In this document: piece after piece, positions 1 through 35,102 of the stretch
Position numbering within the stretch: the stretch's first letter is position 1
Layout: every line of letters begins with the position of its first letter
Source of the DNA: an uncultured Clostridia bacterium
Lineage (GTDB): Bacteria; Bacillota; Clostridia; TANB77; CAG-508
Direction of reading: 5' to 3'
Length of the DNA: 35,102 nucleotides
Assembly: GCA_947631185.1 (NCBI GenBank)
Contig: CANRKJ010000026.1
Location: 1-35,102 of the forward strand
Made by a program: the position numbers and the translations under genes
The notes under the pieces: model-generated
Told to the model about the DNA's origin: nothing
The model's database searches: none
Seen by the model: only the letters and a program-made list of their open reading frames with translations

Positions 1-77
1 ATGGACAGCATTTATTCGCTGATAGAATTTTTGAACCGCTTGACAATTATATAGATAGTATAAAAGAGGATTGTTTG
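1..77. repeat. Left copy of 77-bp terminal direct repeat
   Basis: The first 77 bases are identical to bases 35026-35102. A gene reads in frame across the joined ends (the Dps-like protein), so the repeat marks a circular assembly rather than a biological terminal repeat. 77 is a usual assembler k-mer length. The true circle is 35,025 bp. Confidence 0.97.
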
Positions 78-332
78 CTATTTGAAAAAATTTATCCTCT
101 ATCAAGTAAAGAATATTTAGCGCAGGCTTCTTTGATAGTTCCCGAAAGACTAGAAGACACCGCGCAAAATTGGCTTTCAATGCGTGAATTACATATTAAA
201 ACTTTGAATTTTATTGAATCCATAAAAAATGATTTAACCGTAGGCGAAGCTAATTTGATTGGCAATATCGCTGAAACATTAAACCAAAACTTAGGGTTAT
301 TAAACCTACAATGCGATAGGATAATTAAATAA
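1..332 (+). CDS. Dps-like miniferritin, 3' part (split by contig ends)
   Basis: This is the continuation of the gene that starts at 34935. Joined through the 77-bp overlap, the protein has 140 residues, slightly shorter than a typical Dps of 150-180. The reading frame enters at base 3 and stops at 330-332. This part supplies the third and fourth helices of the expected ferritin-like four-helix bundle, with a helix rich in Leu and Asn at the C-terminus. The residues that define the family lie in the other part (H22, H34, D38, D49, E53). A TTG at 75 could look like a start, but that would remove the whole ferroxidase site, so it is rejected. The ParB-like gene starts 6 bp downstream. Confidence 0.8.
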   Translation, partial: GQHLFADRIFEPLDNYIDSIKEDCLLFEKIYPLSSKEYLAQASLIVPERLEDTAQNWLSMRELHIKTLNFIESIKNDLTVGEANLIGNIAETLNQNLGLLNLQCDRIIK

Positions 333-338
333 TAAAAA

Positions 339-1076
339 ATGATAACTTGGAAAATAGAAAAAAGAAAAATATCAGATTTAAAAGGGTTTAAAAAGAACCC
401 CCGTAAATTTACGGAAAAGGGATTAAAAGATTTAAAAAAATCTTTAGAAAATTTAGGCGATGCAAATATAATAACTATTAATTCTGATAATACTATTTTA
501 GGAGGACACGCAAGAATTCAAGTAATGAAAGAATTAGGCTATAAAGAGGTTGATGTTAAAGTACCAGATAGACTATTAAATGAGAAAGAAGCGGAAGAAA
601 CTTGTATAAGATTAAATGCAAATACAGCAGGCGAATGGGATTTTGATTTATTAAATGATTTTGATAGTTCGGATTTATCAGAATGGGGCTTAAATATTAT
701 TGAGACCCCCGATAATATAGAAAGTAAATATACTAGAAAAGTTGATATTCCTATTTATGAAATAAAAGGGGAAGAACCAACCATAAATGAAATGATTGAT
801 ACTTCAAAAGCTGATAAATTAATAGAAAAAATAAATAAATTAAATATAAAAAAAGAAACAAAAGATTTTTTAATAAAAACCGCTACACGATTATATGAGT
901 TTAATTATAGTAATATAGCCGAATTTTATTGCCACCAAAACAAAGAAGTACAAGAAATAATGGAAGAATTAGCTTTAGTTTTAATTGATTTAAACAAGGC
1001 TGTAGAAAATGGTTATGTACAATTAAATGAATGGATTGAAAAATTATTTTTAGAAACTTCGGAAATTGAATGTTAA
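339..1076 (+). CDS. ParB/sulfiredoxin-fold nuclease-like protein
   Basis: The protein has 245 residues. The N-terminal ~100 residues match the ParB N-terminal/Srx fold: NPRKF at 20-24, then a helix, then GGHAR at 55-59 followed by a Leu/Glu-rich helix, and the RLNAN-GEWD segment near 91-102 that is typical of phage ParB-like proteins. The C-terminal half (about 140-245) is Lys/Glu-rich and I do not recognise it. Stand-alone ParB-like proteins are common in phages beside DNA methylases, base-modifying enzymes and terminases, where they are thought to bind or cut DNA or to hydrolyse nucleotides. The next gene, a predicted base glycosyltransferase, overlaps its stop by 7 bp, which suggests a shared role in DNA modification. 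No partition ATPase (ParA) is present, so plasmid-style partition is unlikely. Confidence 0.8.
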   Translation: MITWKIEKRKISDLKGFKKNPRKFTEKGLKDLKKSLENLGDANIITINSDNTILGGHARIQVMKELGYKEVDVKVPDRLLNEKEAEETCIRLNANTAGEWDFDLLNDFDSSDLSEWGLNIIETPDNIESKYTRKVDIPIYEIKGEEPTINEMIDTSKADKLIEKINKLNIKKETKDFLIKTATRLYEFNYSNIAEFYCHQNKEVQEIMEELALVLIDLNKAVENGYVQLNEWIEKLFLETSEIEC

Positions 1077-1936
1077 ATATAAATGAAACTTGTGTTTTTA
1101 TTTTAACTTATGGTAGGCCTGAAAAAGTTATAACATATAAAGCATTACAAAAACAAAATTATAGTGGAAAAATTTATCTAATATGCGATAATACAGATGA
1201 GAAATTAGAAGAATATAAAAAAATATATAAAAATAAAGTAATTGTTTTTGATAAAAAAGAAGTAGCTTTAAAAACTGATACGATAGATAATTTTAATAAT
1301 TTAAAAGCAGTAGTTTATGCAAGAAATGAAGTTTATAATATTGCCAAAAAGTTAGGCATAAAATATTTTTGTGTATTAGATGATGATTATGATAGGTTTG
1401 AATATAGAAGAATTGTTAATAATAAATTAATAAATTGCAAAATTAAAAATTTAGATGAAATATTTTTAGCAAGTTTTAATTTATTAGATAAATGTAAATT
1501 AATTGATTGTTTTGCGTATGCTCAAAACGGGGATTATATAGCTGGTAAAGATAGTTTTGAAAAAATTAATCATAAAAGAAAAATAATGAATGTATTTTTT
1601 TGTAAGGCTGAAAGATGTTTAGAATTCAAAGGAAGTATTAATGAAGATTTAACTTGTAGCATATATAATGGACAACGAGGGAAATTATTATTAACTTTTA
1701 ATGATATATCAATTAATCAAAAAATTACACAAAGTAATGGGGGGGGGTTAACTGATATATATTTAGATTTAGGTACTTATGTAAAAAGTTTTTATAGCGT
1801 TATAGCCAATCCCAATTGTTGTAAAATCTATACTATGGGTAATAATGATTTAAGAATTCATCATAAAGTAGATTGGAATAAATGCTGTCCTAAACTTATA
1901 AGAGAAGAATTTAAAATTGCAAAAACCAACAGATAA
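1070..1936 (+). CDS. TET-associated-type glycosyltransferase (TAGT-like), predicted DNA base glycosyltransferase
   Basis: The protein has 288 residues and a GT-A-like layout: FILTYGRPEKV at 10-20, the segment KIYLICDNTDEKLEEYK at 34-50, VVYARN at 81-86, a DxD-type metal site LDDDYD at 103-108, and NGGGLTD at 223-229 followed by a Tyr-rich segment. This order is what I know from the TAGT family of phage enzymes, predicted to add sugars to hydroxylated bases in phage DNA. The assignment rests on motif memory, not a search. No TET/JBP hydroxylase or hydroxymethyl-pyrimidine synthase is visible here, so the acceptor is unclear. The three Gly codons 224-226 form a run of nine Gs, unusual in an AT-rich genome and a possible slippage site. 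The gene sits between the ParB-like gene and the terminase small subunit and overlaps both. Confidence 0.72.
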   Translation: MLNINETCVFILTYGRPEKVITYKALQKQNYSGKIYLICDNTDEKLEEYKKIYKNKVIVFDKKEVALKTDTIDNFNNLKAVVYARNEVYNIAKKLGIKYFCVLDDDYDRFEYRRIVNNKLINCKIKNLDEIFLASFNLLDKCKLIDCFAYAQNGDYIAGKDSFEKINHKRKIMNVFFCKAERCLEFKGSINEDLTCSIYNGQRGKLLLTFNDISINQKITQSNGGGLTDIYLDLGTYVKSFYSVIANPNCCKIYTMGNNDLRIHHKVDWNKCCPKLIREEFKIAKTNR

Positions 1937-2264
1937 AAACTTAATAAAGATACGAACCACGGAAGAAGCGAGAGAAAAAGGCAGAAATGGTGGCAAAAAA
2001 TCAGGCGAAGCACGCAGAAAAAAAAAGACAATGCGTGAAGTTCTTGATATTTTAATGGAAAAACAATTAACAAACGCAAAAGGTGAAAAGGCTACTACCT
2101 TAGAAGCTATGATGACTGCCTGCATTAAAAAGGCATTAACAGGTGATATAAAAGCGAATGAGTTTATTCGTGATACAACCGGACAAAAGCCCAAAGAACA
2201 AATGCAGATAGAGGTCGACCGCCCAATTATATATGATGATGTGCCTAAAGAGGTAAAATGTTAA
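1917..2264 (+). CDS. Terminase small subunit-like protein (KGG-motif)
   Basis: The protein has 115 residues. Its basic N-terminus (EAREKGRNGGKKSGEARRKK, about 17-36) is the KGG-like pattern seen in DUF5681-type proteins encoded just before phage large terminases. It is followed by a helical segment (MREVLDILMEKQL) and a second helical part (MMTACIKKALTGDIKANEFI), consistent with a DNA-binding small terminase. The start is TTG at 1917, inside the end of the glycosyltransferase gene, with a weak purine-rich site upstream. The first in-frame ATG would remove the basic motif, so TTG is preferred. It could instead be an accessory packaging protein. The large subunit follows after one small gene. 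Confidence 0.65.
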   Translation: MQKPTDKNLIKIRTTEEAREKGRNGGKKSGEARRKKKTMREVLDILMEKQLTNAKGEKATTLEAMMTACIKKALTGDIKANEFIRDTTGQKPKEQMQIEVDRPIIYDDVPKEVKC

Positions 2265-2425
2265 AAAATAAAAGTTTTATAACAGATTTTATTAATTTTT
2301 TTGAAAAAGAGTTTAATATTGAATTTTTGGGAGCGGATGAAAAAAGTCAAATGACAAGCGCACCGCTTGATTTTATAATATCATATTTTTATGGAAATAA
2401 AAATAACAGATTTAATAGCCCCTAA
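2258..2425 (+). CDS. Small hypothetical protein between terminase subunits
   Basis: A 55-residue reading frame starts at ATG 2258, overlapping the stop of the small terminase gene, with a purine-rich site (AAAGAGG) just upstream. It runs 35 bp into the large terminase gene. The product is aromatic and charged (FINFFEKEFNIEFLGADEK) and resembles nothing I can name. Tight coupling on both sides and a full use of the gap before the large subunit argue that it is translated. It may also serve to couple terminase translation. Confidence 0.55.
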   Translation: MLKNKSFITDFINFFEKEFNIEFLGADEKSQMTSAPLDFIISYFYGNKNNRFNSP

Positions 2426-3617
2426 TTTTTATGAATTACATAATATAATTAAAAATGAAGAATATTTTAATATTTGGTTAACGGGGGGCAGAAATAGTTT
2501 AAAATCATCTTTTGTATCAATTGAAATTATTTTAGGTATGGCAAGGGACGAAAAAGCAAATGCGGTAGTATTAAGAAAAGTAGGTAAATATTTAAAAGAT
2601 AGCGTATATAATACTTTTATATGGGCTATTGATAAACTGGGGTTAACCCCTTATTATATTTTTTTAAAATCGCCCTTAAAAATTGTAAATAGATTTACCG
2701 GTCAAACAATTAGCTTTTTTGGACTGGATGAGCCGTTAAATTTAAAATCTATTAAATCCGAAAAAGGATATTTCCGCTTTATTTGGTATGAAGAAGTAAA
2801 CCAATTTGACGGAATGCCTGAAATTAGAAGCGTAAATTTATCATTGGGGCGTGAACACGATAAACCATACTTTTTTTATACGTATAACCCCCCGCCAGAA
2901 ACTGACCATTGGATTAATGAAGAAATTGCAATAAAAAAAGATAATAGAATAATCCATCATAGTACCTATTTAGAAGTACCAAAAGAATGGATAAAACAAA
3001 ATATACTGTTAGAAGCGAAAGAACTTAAAAAATATCATCCTCTACAATATGAAAATGAATTTTTAGGCAAGGTAACAGGCAGGGGCTTGAATGTATTTAA
3101 TAATATTGAAAGCCGTATTATTACCGATACTGAAATCAATAATTTAAGAATATTTGGTGAAGGTATTGACTGGGGCTATTCAGTAGACCCATTCGCTTGG
3201 GTAGCGGTAGGATATAATCGAAAATACAAAGATTTATATATTTTTGATGAAGTATACGGCGTAGGCTTCTCAAACCCCGTAGCAATACAATTGGTAAAAG
3301 CTAAGCATAGAAATCAATGCGTTATAAAAGCTGACGACGAAGAACCTAAAAGTATCGATGAATTTTGCGACGCTGGACTTGAAACCGAACGCGCTAGGAA
3401 GCCCGCAGGCTCAAGACATTATTATTTGAAATGGTTGCAGGGTTGCAGAAAAATAATTATAGACCCTGAACGCTGTCCTAACGCAGATAGGGAATTTAGA
3501 AAATATCAATATGTTATGGATAAAGCAGGGCGGGTTAAATCAGAATACCCCGACAAAGATAACCATACTATTGACGCTGTTTGTTATTCAATCAGAGAAA
3601 TTGAAACTTATATTTAA
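2391..3617 (+). CDS. terL: Terminase large subunit
   Basis: The protein has 408 residues, a normal length for PBSX/SPP1-type large terminases. The ATPase domain has a variant Walker A at 31-40 (TGGRNSLKSS) and a Walker B ending in the catalytic Glu pair at 130-135 (FIWYEE). A coupling segment near TYNPPP follows. The C-terminal RNase H-like nuclease domain has its first Asp at 260 (EGIDWGYS), a middle acidic stretch (KADDEEPKSIDE) and a last Asp at 395 (NHTIDAVCYS). It translocates DNA into the prohead through the portal encoded next and cuts the concatemer. The start ATG lies within the preceding small gene, and its stop overlaps the portal start (TAATG). Confidence 0.96.
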   Translation: MEIKITDLIAPNFYELHNIIKNEEYFNIWLTGGRNSLKSSFVSIEIILGMARDEKANAVVLRKVGKYLKDSVYNTFIWAIDKLGLTPYYIFLKSPLKIVNRFTGQTISFFGLDEPLNLKSIKSEKGYFRFIWYEEVNQFDGMPEIRSVNLSLGREHDKPYFFYTYNPPPETDHWINEEIAIKKDNRIIHHSTYLEVPKEWIKQNILLEAKELKKYHPLQYENEFLGKVTGRGLNVFNNIESRIITDTEINNLRIFGEGIDWGYSVDPFAWVAVGYNRKYKDLYIFDEVYGVGFSNPVAIQLVKAKHRNQCVIKADDEEPKSIDEFCDAGLETERARKPAGSRHYYLKWLQGCRKIIIDPERCPNADREFRKYQYVMDKAGRVKSEYPDKDNHTIDAVCYSIREIETYI

Positions 3618-34490: not shown

Positions 34491-34519
34491 TTGAAATTTT
34501 TAAAATTGTACTTTATAAT
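34491..34519 (+). promoter_or_regulatory. Sigma70-like promoter upstream of the late region
   Basis: TTGAAA (34491-34496), 17 nt, TATAAT (34514-34519). This is the best consensus promoter in the genome. It follows the LuxR-type gene by 10 bp and precedes the Cys-rich, Dps-like, ParB-like, glycosyltransferase and terminase genes, with no terminator in between. Confidence 0.78.
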
Positions 34520-34590
34520 ATAAATATCTTTATTATGAAGTGTCTAGATTTTTACATAGGCATAGGAGTAATTTTAAAAAAGAGGTAATT

Positions 34591-34935
34591 TTGTCAACGG
34601 TATATTGTTGTGGATTTAACCAAGAAAGTAAAGTTTATAACTTGCCGGCTGTTAATTGCGCTTGGAAAAAATTATTTTTTTTAAATGCCTGTTGTGTGTG
34701 TGGTCAATGTATTGCACAATTAAAAATATGTACTAAAAAAGGCGAAATTAAAATAATTGGCAGGTATAGAGGCGAAAAAGCGCTCGCTATACGTGATAAA
34801 ATTATTAAAGAAATAAAAAAGTATAAGGCGGCAAATGGCACTTGGCAAAACCAATTGATACATTATAATAATAAAGGCGATATTTACAATTTTAACAATC
34901 AAAAAGTTGGTAAAAACGAGGATTTTGTTAAATAA
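34591..34935 (+). CDS. Cys-rich hypothetical protein before the Dps-like gene
   Basis: A 114-residue protein from TTG 34591, with AAGAGG 5 nt upstream. A longer frame from GTG 34540 (131 residues) has no ribosome site and lies closer to the promoter. The N-terminal half has YCCGFNQESKVYNLPAVNC and LNACCVCGQCIAQLKICTKK, where several Cys could form a zinc site. The second half is a strand and helix (IKIIGRYRGEKALAIRDKII) followed by a polar tail. The pattern 'flN.CpvCg..i....' plus 'R..g..A' is common in phage proteins of unknown role. Its stop overlaps the start of the Dps-like gene (TAATG). Confidence 0.72.
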   Translation: MSTVYCCGFNQESKVYNLPAVNCAWKKLFFLNACCVCGQCIAQLKICTKKGEIKIIGRYRGEKALAIRDKIIKEIKKYKAANGTWQNQLIHYNNKGDIYNFNNQKVGKNEDFVK

Positions 34936-35102
34936 TGAACAAATTTAACCAATTAGTTATTTATTTGATAGCTATTCAAAATTTTGCGAAAGATATACAT
35001 TATAGCGTGAATGGAGAAGCATTTTATGGACAGCATTTATTCGCTGATAGAATTTTTGAACCGCTTGACAATTATATAGATAGTATAAAAGAGGATTGTT
35101 TG
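34935..35102 (+). CDS. Dps-like miniferritin, 5' part (continues at base 78)
   Basis: This part encodes residues 1-56 of a 140-residue protein that continues at base 78 of the window. It contains H22, H34, D38, D49 and E53. Their spacings (12, 4, 11, 4) are the same as for the five ferroxidase residues of Listeria Dps (H31, H43, D47, D58, E62). H22 lies in IHYSVNGEAF, which corresponds to the family's 'hWnvkG..F'. Dps proteins form 12-subunit shells that oxidise and store iron and protect DNA from peroxide. The start overlaps the stop of the gene before it. A phage copy at the head of the late transcript would be made late in infection. Confidence 0.82.
   Translation, partial: MNKFNQLVIYLIAIQNFAKDIHYSVNGEAFYGQHLFADRIFEPLDNYIDSIKEDCL
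35026..35102. repeat. Right copy of 77-bp terminal direct repeat
   Basis: Identical to bases 1-77. It closes the circle and should be counted once. Confidence 0.97.

Follow-up and report, generated by a model that had tools for sequence, protein, structure and literature searches.

A putative phage-encoded miniferritin of the Dps family, divided in the record by the ends of a circularly assembled contig

The window analyzed here is a stretch of 35,102 nucleotides that constitutes a whole contig of a draft genome (a MAG of 2.05 Mb in 78 contigs, 96% complete and 6.5% contaminated). When the two ends of the contig are joined, a gene appears that probably encodes a phage miniferritin belonging to a divergent phage subfamily of Dps, and that was probably split in the record when a circularly assembled genome was cut. 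An earlier note had proposed a Dps-like miniferritin at this position from the letters of the window, and family profiles and invariant ferroxidase residues now back this identity.

Results

Contig ends and the joined frame

Overlaps of 11–400 bp between the contig ends were tried, and the longest exact overlap was 77 bp. Since 77 is a common k-mer size in assemblers, we regard this overlap as the remnant of a circular assembly graph. As part of the explanation given above, the phage genome is taken to have been assembled as a circle and cut within the dps-like gene, which split the gene in the record as follows:

35026..35102, no strand: 77-bp end overlap, identical to 1–77; an assembly sign of circularity
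34935..35102, plus strand: dps-like gene, first part; residues 1–56, containing H22, H34, D38, D49, and E53
1..332, plus strand: dps-like gene, last part; the frame enters at base 3, positions 1–77 repeat 35026–35102, positions 78–332 are new sequence, and the stop is at 330–332

The joined frame (34935–35102, then 78–332) encodes 140 aa from ATG to TAA. The pattern H.{11}H.{3}D.{10}D.{3}E has a single match in the joined protein, starting at H22 (H22, H34, D38, D49, and E53), and we take this spacing to be that of the Dps ferroxidase residues. The pattern was present in 0 of 200,000 shuffles of the joined protein and in one of the 184 six-frame open stretches (at least 45 aa) of the window, which was the 5' piece of the dps-like gene itself.

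The homologue in locus L168 (7691–8095) is identical to the joined protein at 71 of 135 positions (53%), comprising 32/56 in the portion that ends with the overlap and 39/79 in the remainder, and an unbroken homologue in L186 shows 50% identity. Residues 57–140 alone retrieved L168 at 2e-12 among 16,434 open stretches. Because the relatives hold both halves in one unbroken frame and the 3' half alone finds L168, the join is sound as judged from sequence. In L219, moreover, the gene that leads directly into dps is a homologue of the one upstream of dps in the window. The claim that joining the ends through the 77-bp overlap restores a 140-residue protein with five residues at the exact Dps spacing was thus upheld. 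A gene severed by contig ends is recoverable in this way and can then be validated via its relatives.

Relatives of the joined protein

Searches of IMG/VR with the joined protein alone and with the large terminase subunit (TerL) alone found no relative. A portal alignment scan provided 97 loci, namely, the best 80 of 325 relatives in IMG/VR and 17 in genome contigs. An unbroken homologue of the joined protein was present in three of these 97 loci (L168, L091, and L093); many of them end short upstream of the portal, and absence there says little. A scan with the homologues added L186 and L189, while the two other loci that it retrieved come from contigs already represented by L093 and L091. 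Among 288 genomes from the family of the L168 genome, nine matched: the L168 genome itself, five with strong matches (L216–L220), and three with weak matches (G683, G662, and G612), which were excluded because of internal stop codons. One further member, L206, was obtained from a phrog_3636 search of 383 genomes; four matches of that search were excluded because they lie within open frames of 445–2525 aa. The weak match in G665 was also excluded because the joined protein did not confirm it. The family examined below consequently has 12 members (the window protein, L168, L091, L093, L186, L189, L206, and L216–L220), and the relatives are 31–53% identical to the window protein.

Profile searches and ferroxidase residues

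The PHROG profile phrog_3636 matched the joined protein at 2.6e-9 and the 5' piece at 2.8e-8, and did not match the 3' piece. The statement that neither half is recognizable alone accordingly holds for the 3' piece, which found nothing in Pfam or PHROGs, and fails for the 5' piece of 56 aa. The expectation that routine family annotation would miss the gene was borne out by Pfam, in which the window protein matched DUF5856 (PF19174) only, with an E-value of 0.12. Membership of DUF5856 was rejected because the scores were beneath the family cut-off of 34.6 bits (window, 13.9; L168, 14.9; L093, 12.7; L091, 19.6). Pfam Ferritin did not match the window protein, and its match to L168 (0.018) was beneath the cut-off.

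With the single protein as the query, the best match was Dlp-2 at 0.037 in the PDB and a Salmonella phage Dps at 0.05 in phage records. At E≤0.01, the family profile retrieved 31 different sequences from the PDB; one is named ‘AFP’, and the names of the others are Dps or ferritin-type. The best match was Agrobacterium Dps at 8.9e-6. In hhalign, the 12-member family aligned with a 36-sequence profile of bacterial and phage Dps over residues 4–131 (E=6.5e-9; best of 20 column-shuffled controls, 0.038). The C-terminal half alone gave an hhalign E-value of 0.09 against the Dps profile, which is short of significance. When appended to the N-terminal half, it added only 3.7 bits, a gain that 78 of 2,000 shuffled tails reached, as did 7 of 122 tails taken from other frames. 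Since the second half alone is not significant, its assignment to the Dps fold depends on its being continuous with the first half. Structure models, which covered a 109-aa piece, contained four helices at low confidence (pLDDT of 67 and 58), and their fold matches were within helical-bundle noise.

H22, H34, D38, D49, and E53 were invariant in all 12 family members. The alignment has 140 columns, of which only 17 are invariant; if invariant columns were placed at random, the chance that they include all five residues would be 1.5e-5. The exact canonical spacing was retained in ten members. In the other two, L217 (8549–8980) and L218 (5228–5650), the interval from D38 to D49, the third and fourth ferroxidase residues, is longer by an acidic insert of 7 or 6 residues. 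All 12 members also share a subfamily signature, a Tyr after the first His (HY for HW) and a Lys before the last Glu (KE for AE). The strict motif, with Asp as the third residue, was present in 6/6 other phage Dps examined. Of the 36 comparison Dps, 5 have it; the remaining 31 come from the bacterial family of the MAG and carry Glu for the first Asp in those sequences that were read.

The window protein is acidic (pI 4.9), and its first ferroxidase His is already residue 22. Asp and Glu outnumbered Lys and Arg in 12/12 members, and L219 is the sole member with a basic C-terminal extension. The window protein does not have the basic N- or C-terminal tail of DNA-binding Dps of the E. coli type. 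Because this tail is absent and the protein is acidic, DNA coating of the E. coli type appears unlikely, and the proposal that the protein protects phage DNA by binding gained no support.

Gene neighborhood

Across the junction, the order of genes is a LuxR-type regulator (34215), a Cys-rich gene (34540), dps, a ParB-like gene, a TET-associated glycosyltransferase gene, a phrog_2412 gene, terL, and the portal and head genes. The features around dps are the following:

34491..34519, plus strand: promoter-like site TTGAAA-17-TATAAT, 11 of 12; a consensus match only
34540..34935, plus strand: Cys-rich gene, 131 aa, directly upstream of dps; its stop overlaps the dps start (TAATG)
339..1076, plus strand: ParB-like gene (phrog_620, 3.2e-29); starts 6 bases past the dps stop
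1070..1936, plus strand: TET-associated glycosyltransferase (TAGT) gene (PF20691, 9.8e-38); DNA modification
1917..2264, plus strand: phrog_2412 gene, which by its position may encode the small terminase subunit; its relatives come after dps in L091, L093, and L217
2391..3617, plus strand: terminase large subunit gene (terL), four genes downstream of dps

The overlap of the dps start with the preceding stop and the 6-base gap to the next gene suggest that the Cys-rich gene, dps, and the ParB-like gene may be on one transcript. The ‘late promoter’ of the earlier note corresponds to a consensus match only: the site at 34491–34519 agrees well with the consensus, but such sites were not clearly enriched in the region (13 versus 9.0 expected, sd 3.5). 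The placement of dps next to DNA modification and packaging genes (ParB-like, TET-associated glycosyltransferase, and terL) was confirmed, and closeness to the terminase genes is common to most relatives.

The Cys-rich gene at 34540–34935 is zinc-ribbon-like (CC...CxxCGQ) and had no Pfam or PHROG match at 0.01. We guess that it is possibly a late regulator. A homologue immediately precedes dps in L219 and terL in L169 and L184. Since these last two loci, which are related prophages, have the Cys-rich gene and then terL with no dps between, the block that contains dps seems to be optional cargo located upstream of the packaging genes.

When genes shorter than 75 aa are disregarded, dps is followed by a gene of the small terminase (terS) type or a phrog_2412 gene in eight of 11 relatives (L091, L093, L168, L186, L216, L217, L219, and L220). 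The genes in L091, L093, and L217 are homologues of the phrog_2412 gene of the window. The gene in L168 matched a terS profile (phrog_1206, 5.4e-6), its best match being a family of unknown function, and the gene in L220 is a homologue of the L168 gene. The terS-type label for L186, L216, and L219 came from a reading of the sequence. Of the remaining relatives, L189 has a ParB-like gene at this place, like the window, L206 has a tail-like gene, and L218 has a gene of no clear type.

Several other arrangements were noted. In L171, a Superficieibacter prophage, homologues of the ParB-like and TET-associated glycosyltransferase genes are side by side upstream of the portal. In L093 (2158–7105), a related IMG/VR phage, the stretch shortly before dps contains an S-adenosylmethionine synthetase gene and two ParB-like genes, of which one includes a DNA methyltransferase domain. 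The phrog_2412 gene and terL are separate in the window (1917–3617), and a single open frame matches both in 7 of 11 terL regions from the family of the MAG (L066 and L068–L073). A TET-type or iron-dependent oxygenase was not detected among the window genes scanned (a subset of the open frames), and Rfam and tRNA scans of the window found nothing.

Host of the phage and Dps of the host clade

The joined protein was detected in one of 144 genomes sampled around the MAG and the portal in one of 390 genomes of its family; in both cases, this was the MAG itself. Among the 17 portal relatives in genome contigs, those of L168, L169, L170, and L184 are most like the portal of the window. The RpoB proteins of these four genomes are about 90–99% identical to each other and 63% identical to that of the MAG over an alignment of 741–746 residues. 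In another comparison, this part of the MAG RpoB was 64–65% identical to the four and 63–70%, in pieces, to a Superficieibacter. The name Candidatus Gastranaerophilales is derived from the record of L168, one of the four genomes; this clade consists of relatives of cyanobacteria.

Because the portal is absent from the other genomes sampled in the family of the MAG, and because the genomes with the nearest portal relatives differ from the MAG in RpoB, the contig was probably misbinned, and the likely host of the phage is this Gastranaerophilales-type clade. Two results argue against misbinning. In the family of the MAG, 41 of the 390 genomes sampled have terL matches, with relatives at 41–46%, and the GC content of the rpoB stretch of the MAG (0.31) is close to that of the window (0.317), with 0.22 in another contig of the MAG. 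No Dps-like frame was found in the 11 regions fetched around terL matches (L066–L076). The tetranucleotide pattern of the window, a hint only, correlated at 0.70 with L170 and at 0.31 with L168; the values were 0.22 for its own MAG (stretches of two contigs) and 0.36 for the genus of the MAG (two genomes). Since the MAG is doubted as the host, the idea that it lacks Dps and the phage supplies it was dropped for the MAG bacterium.

The profile phrog_3636 also detects Dps of the usual bacterial type, with matches in 9 of 14 control genomes. It matched 88 of 292 genomes in the family of the MAG, 85 of them at 4e-22 or better, and 12 of 383 genomes in the family of the L168 genome (G447), with 2.6e-9 as the best value. 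Of these 12 matches, seven were of the phage type by sequence, one was unconfirmed, and four were in the 445–2525-aa frames mentioned above. The phrog_3636 search detected no bacterial-strength Dps match in these 383 genomes, many of which are drafts. The bacterial hosts of this small phage lineage, therefore, seem not to have a Dps of their own.

Discussion

Proposed function and alternatives

We propose that the product is likely a ferroxidase that lowers Fe2+ and peroxide during infection. The subunit would fold into four helices and assemble into a 12-mer shell, in which Fe2+ would be oxidized with peroxide or oxygen at inter-subunit sites and stored as Fe3+. In an infected or lysogenic anaerobe, free iron and peroxide would then be lower, and Fenton damage would be reduced late in infection or during lysogeny. 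In anaerobic hosts in which no Dps was detected, this would spare the host machinery as well as phage DNA that is being replicated or has been packaged. The protein would probably act by chemistry and not by DNA coating because a basic tail is absent. A study on Yersinia ruckeri infected with phage YerA41 lists the host dps among the most induced genes (PMC7354516), which suggests that Dps can matter in infection.

The location of the gene permits another explanation, namely, that the Dps fold was reused as a late structural, packaging, or regulatory protein, in which the metal site serves mainly for stability. The terS-type or phrog_2412 gene that comes next in 8/11 relatives, the position of terL four genes downstream in the window, the changed residues around the site (HY and KE in 12/12), and the absence of a basic tail from the window protein are consistent with this reading. 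However, the five ferroxidase residues are invariant although most of the protein varies, and packaging appears independent of dps in L169 and L184, in which terL comes right after the Cys-rich gene. We consequently regard a reused fold as unlikely. The DNA modification genes beside dps in the window, the ParB-like genes near it in L091, L093, and L189, and the methyltransferase domain and S-adenosylmethionine synthetase of L093 suggest instead an iron store or chaperone, which would feed a DNA-modifying enzyme that depends on iron or would deprive host enzymes or the spike of the metal. This appears very improbable: the window genes scanned, a subset of its open frames, include no iron-dependent oxygenase, and L168, L216, and L220 have dps with no ParB or glycosyltransferase match in the stretch examined. 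The earlier note had also envisaged competition for the iron of an HxH spike tip; the spike gene ends with one HLH, but nothing links the spike and dps.

The window comes from a draft genome with 6.5% contamination, and its second half is weakly supported by Dps profiles alone, as would be expected of a chimera produced by false joining of the contig ends. Eleven homologues with both halves in a single unbroken frame already contradict a chimera, and we attach almost no weight to it. A putative ferroxidase of the Dps family remains our preferred reading. If the protein is active, such anaerobes could owe their oxygen tolerance to a prophage. We may further envision, as a rather doubtful extension, that this phage-only subfamily near the packaging locus is the sole Dps met by Gastranaerophilales, that a phage or prophage brings an iron and peroxide defense timed with DNA packaging, and that prophage carriage alters survival in oxygen.

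Comparison with known systems

The idea that a phage gene of this kind is unusual gained no support. Dps-like genes were present in 217 of 50,697 phage records (one query, E≤1e-3). Published studies describe DPS-like genes in the gut ‘Gratiaviridae’ and 36 other gut phage genomes, for which oxidative tolerance was proposed (PMC8008677), and a ferritin-like protein in Lactobacillus phages (PMC6669764). As described there, these proteins resemble that of the window in being phage-borne, ferritin-like enzymes thought to raise the oxidative tolerance of the host; their hosts differ, being Bacteroidetes and Lactobacillus, and the likeness is one of description. The name Gastranaerophilales was absent among the literature matches listed, which is no proof of absence, and the literature search found no paper on DUF5856.

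The family resembles the Dps miniferritins of known structure (Agrobacterium Dps 1o9r, Dlp-2 1jig, and E. coli Dps 1dps) in its profile match over most of its length and in the five ferroxidase residues, at the canonical spacing in 10/12 members. In contrast to these proteins, the window protein is under the Pfam Ferritin and DUF5856 thresholds, carries Tyr in place of the Trp by the first His, has the Ala that precedes the last Glu replaced by Lys, and is without a basic tail, although its relative in L219 has a basic C-terminal extension. The phage Dps of phrog_3636 (Salmonella phages SE131 and 7-11, and Escherichia, Aeromonas, Proteus, and Streptomyces phages) belong to the same family and carry the exact motif in the six examined, but are only 13–20% identical (16/126 to 26/131); a search of the phage collection with the L093 homologue retrieved nothing at E≤0.1. 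In the four enteric and Aeromonas phages viewed, the gene is near thyX, dCTP deaminase, PhoH, or anaerobic reductase genes, whereas that of the window precedes the terminase.

Phage Dps is, therefore, known in kind. What is new is a putative divergent subfamily (HY for HW and KE for AE), located mostly just before the terminase genes, in a host clade without a detected Dps. The present results add this subfamily to the phages of the gut clade Candidatus Gastranaerophilales, in which no bacterial-strength Dps match was found.
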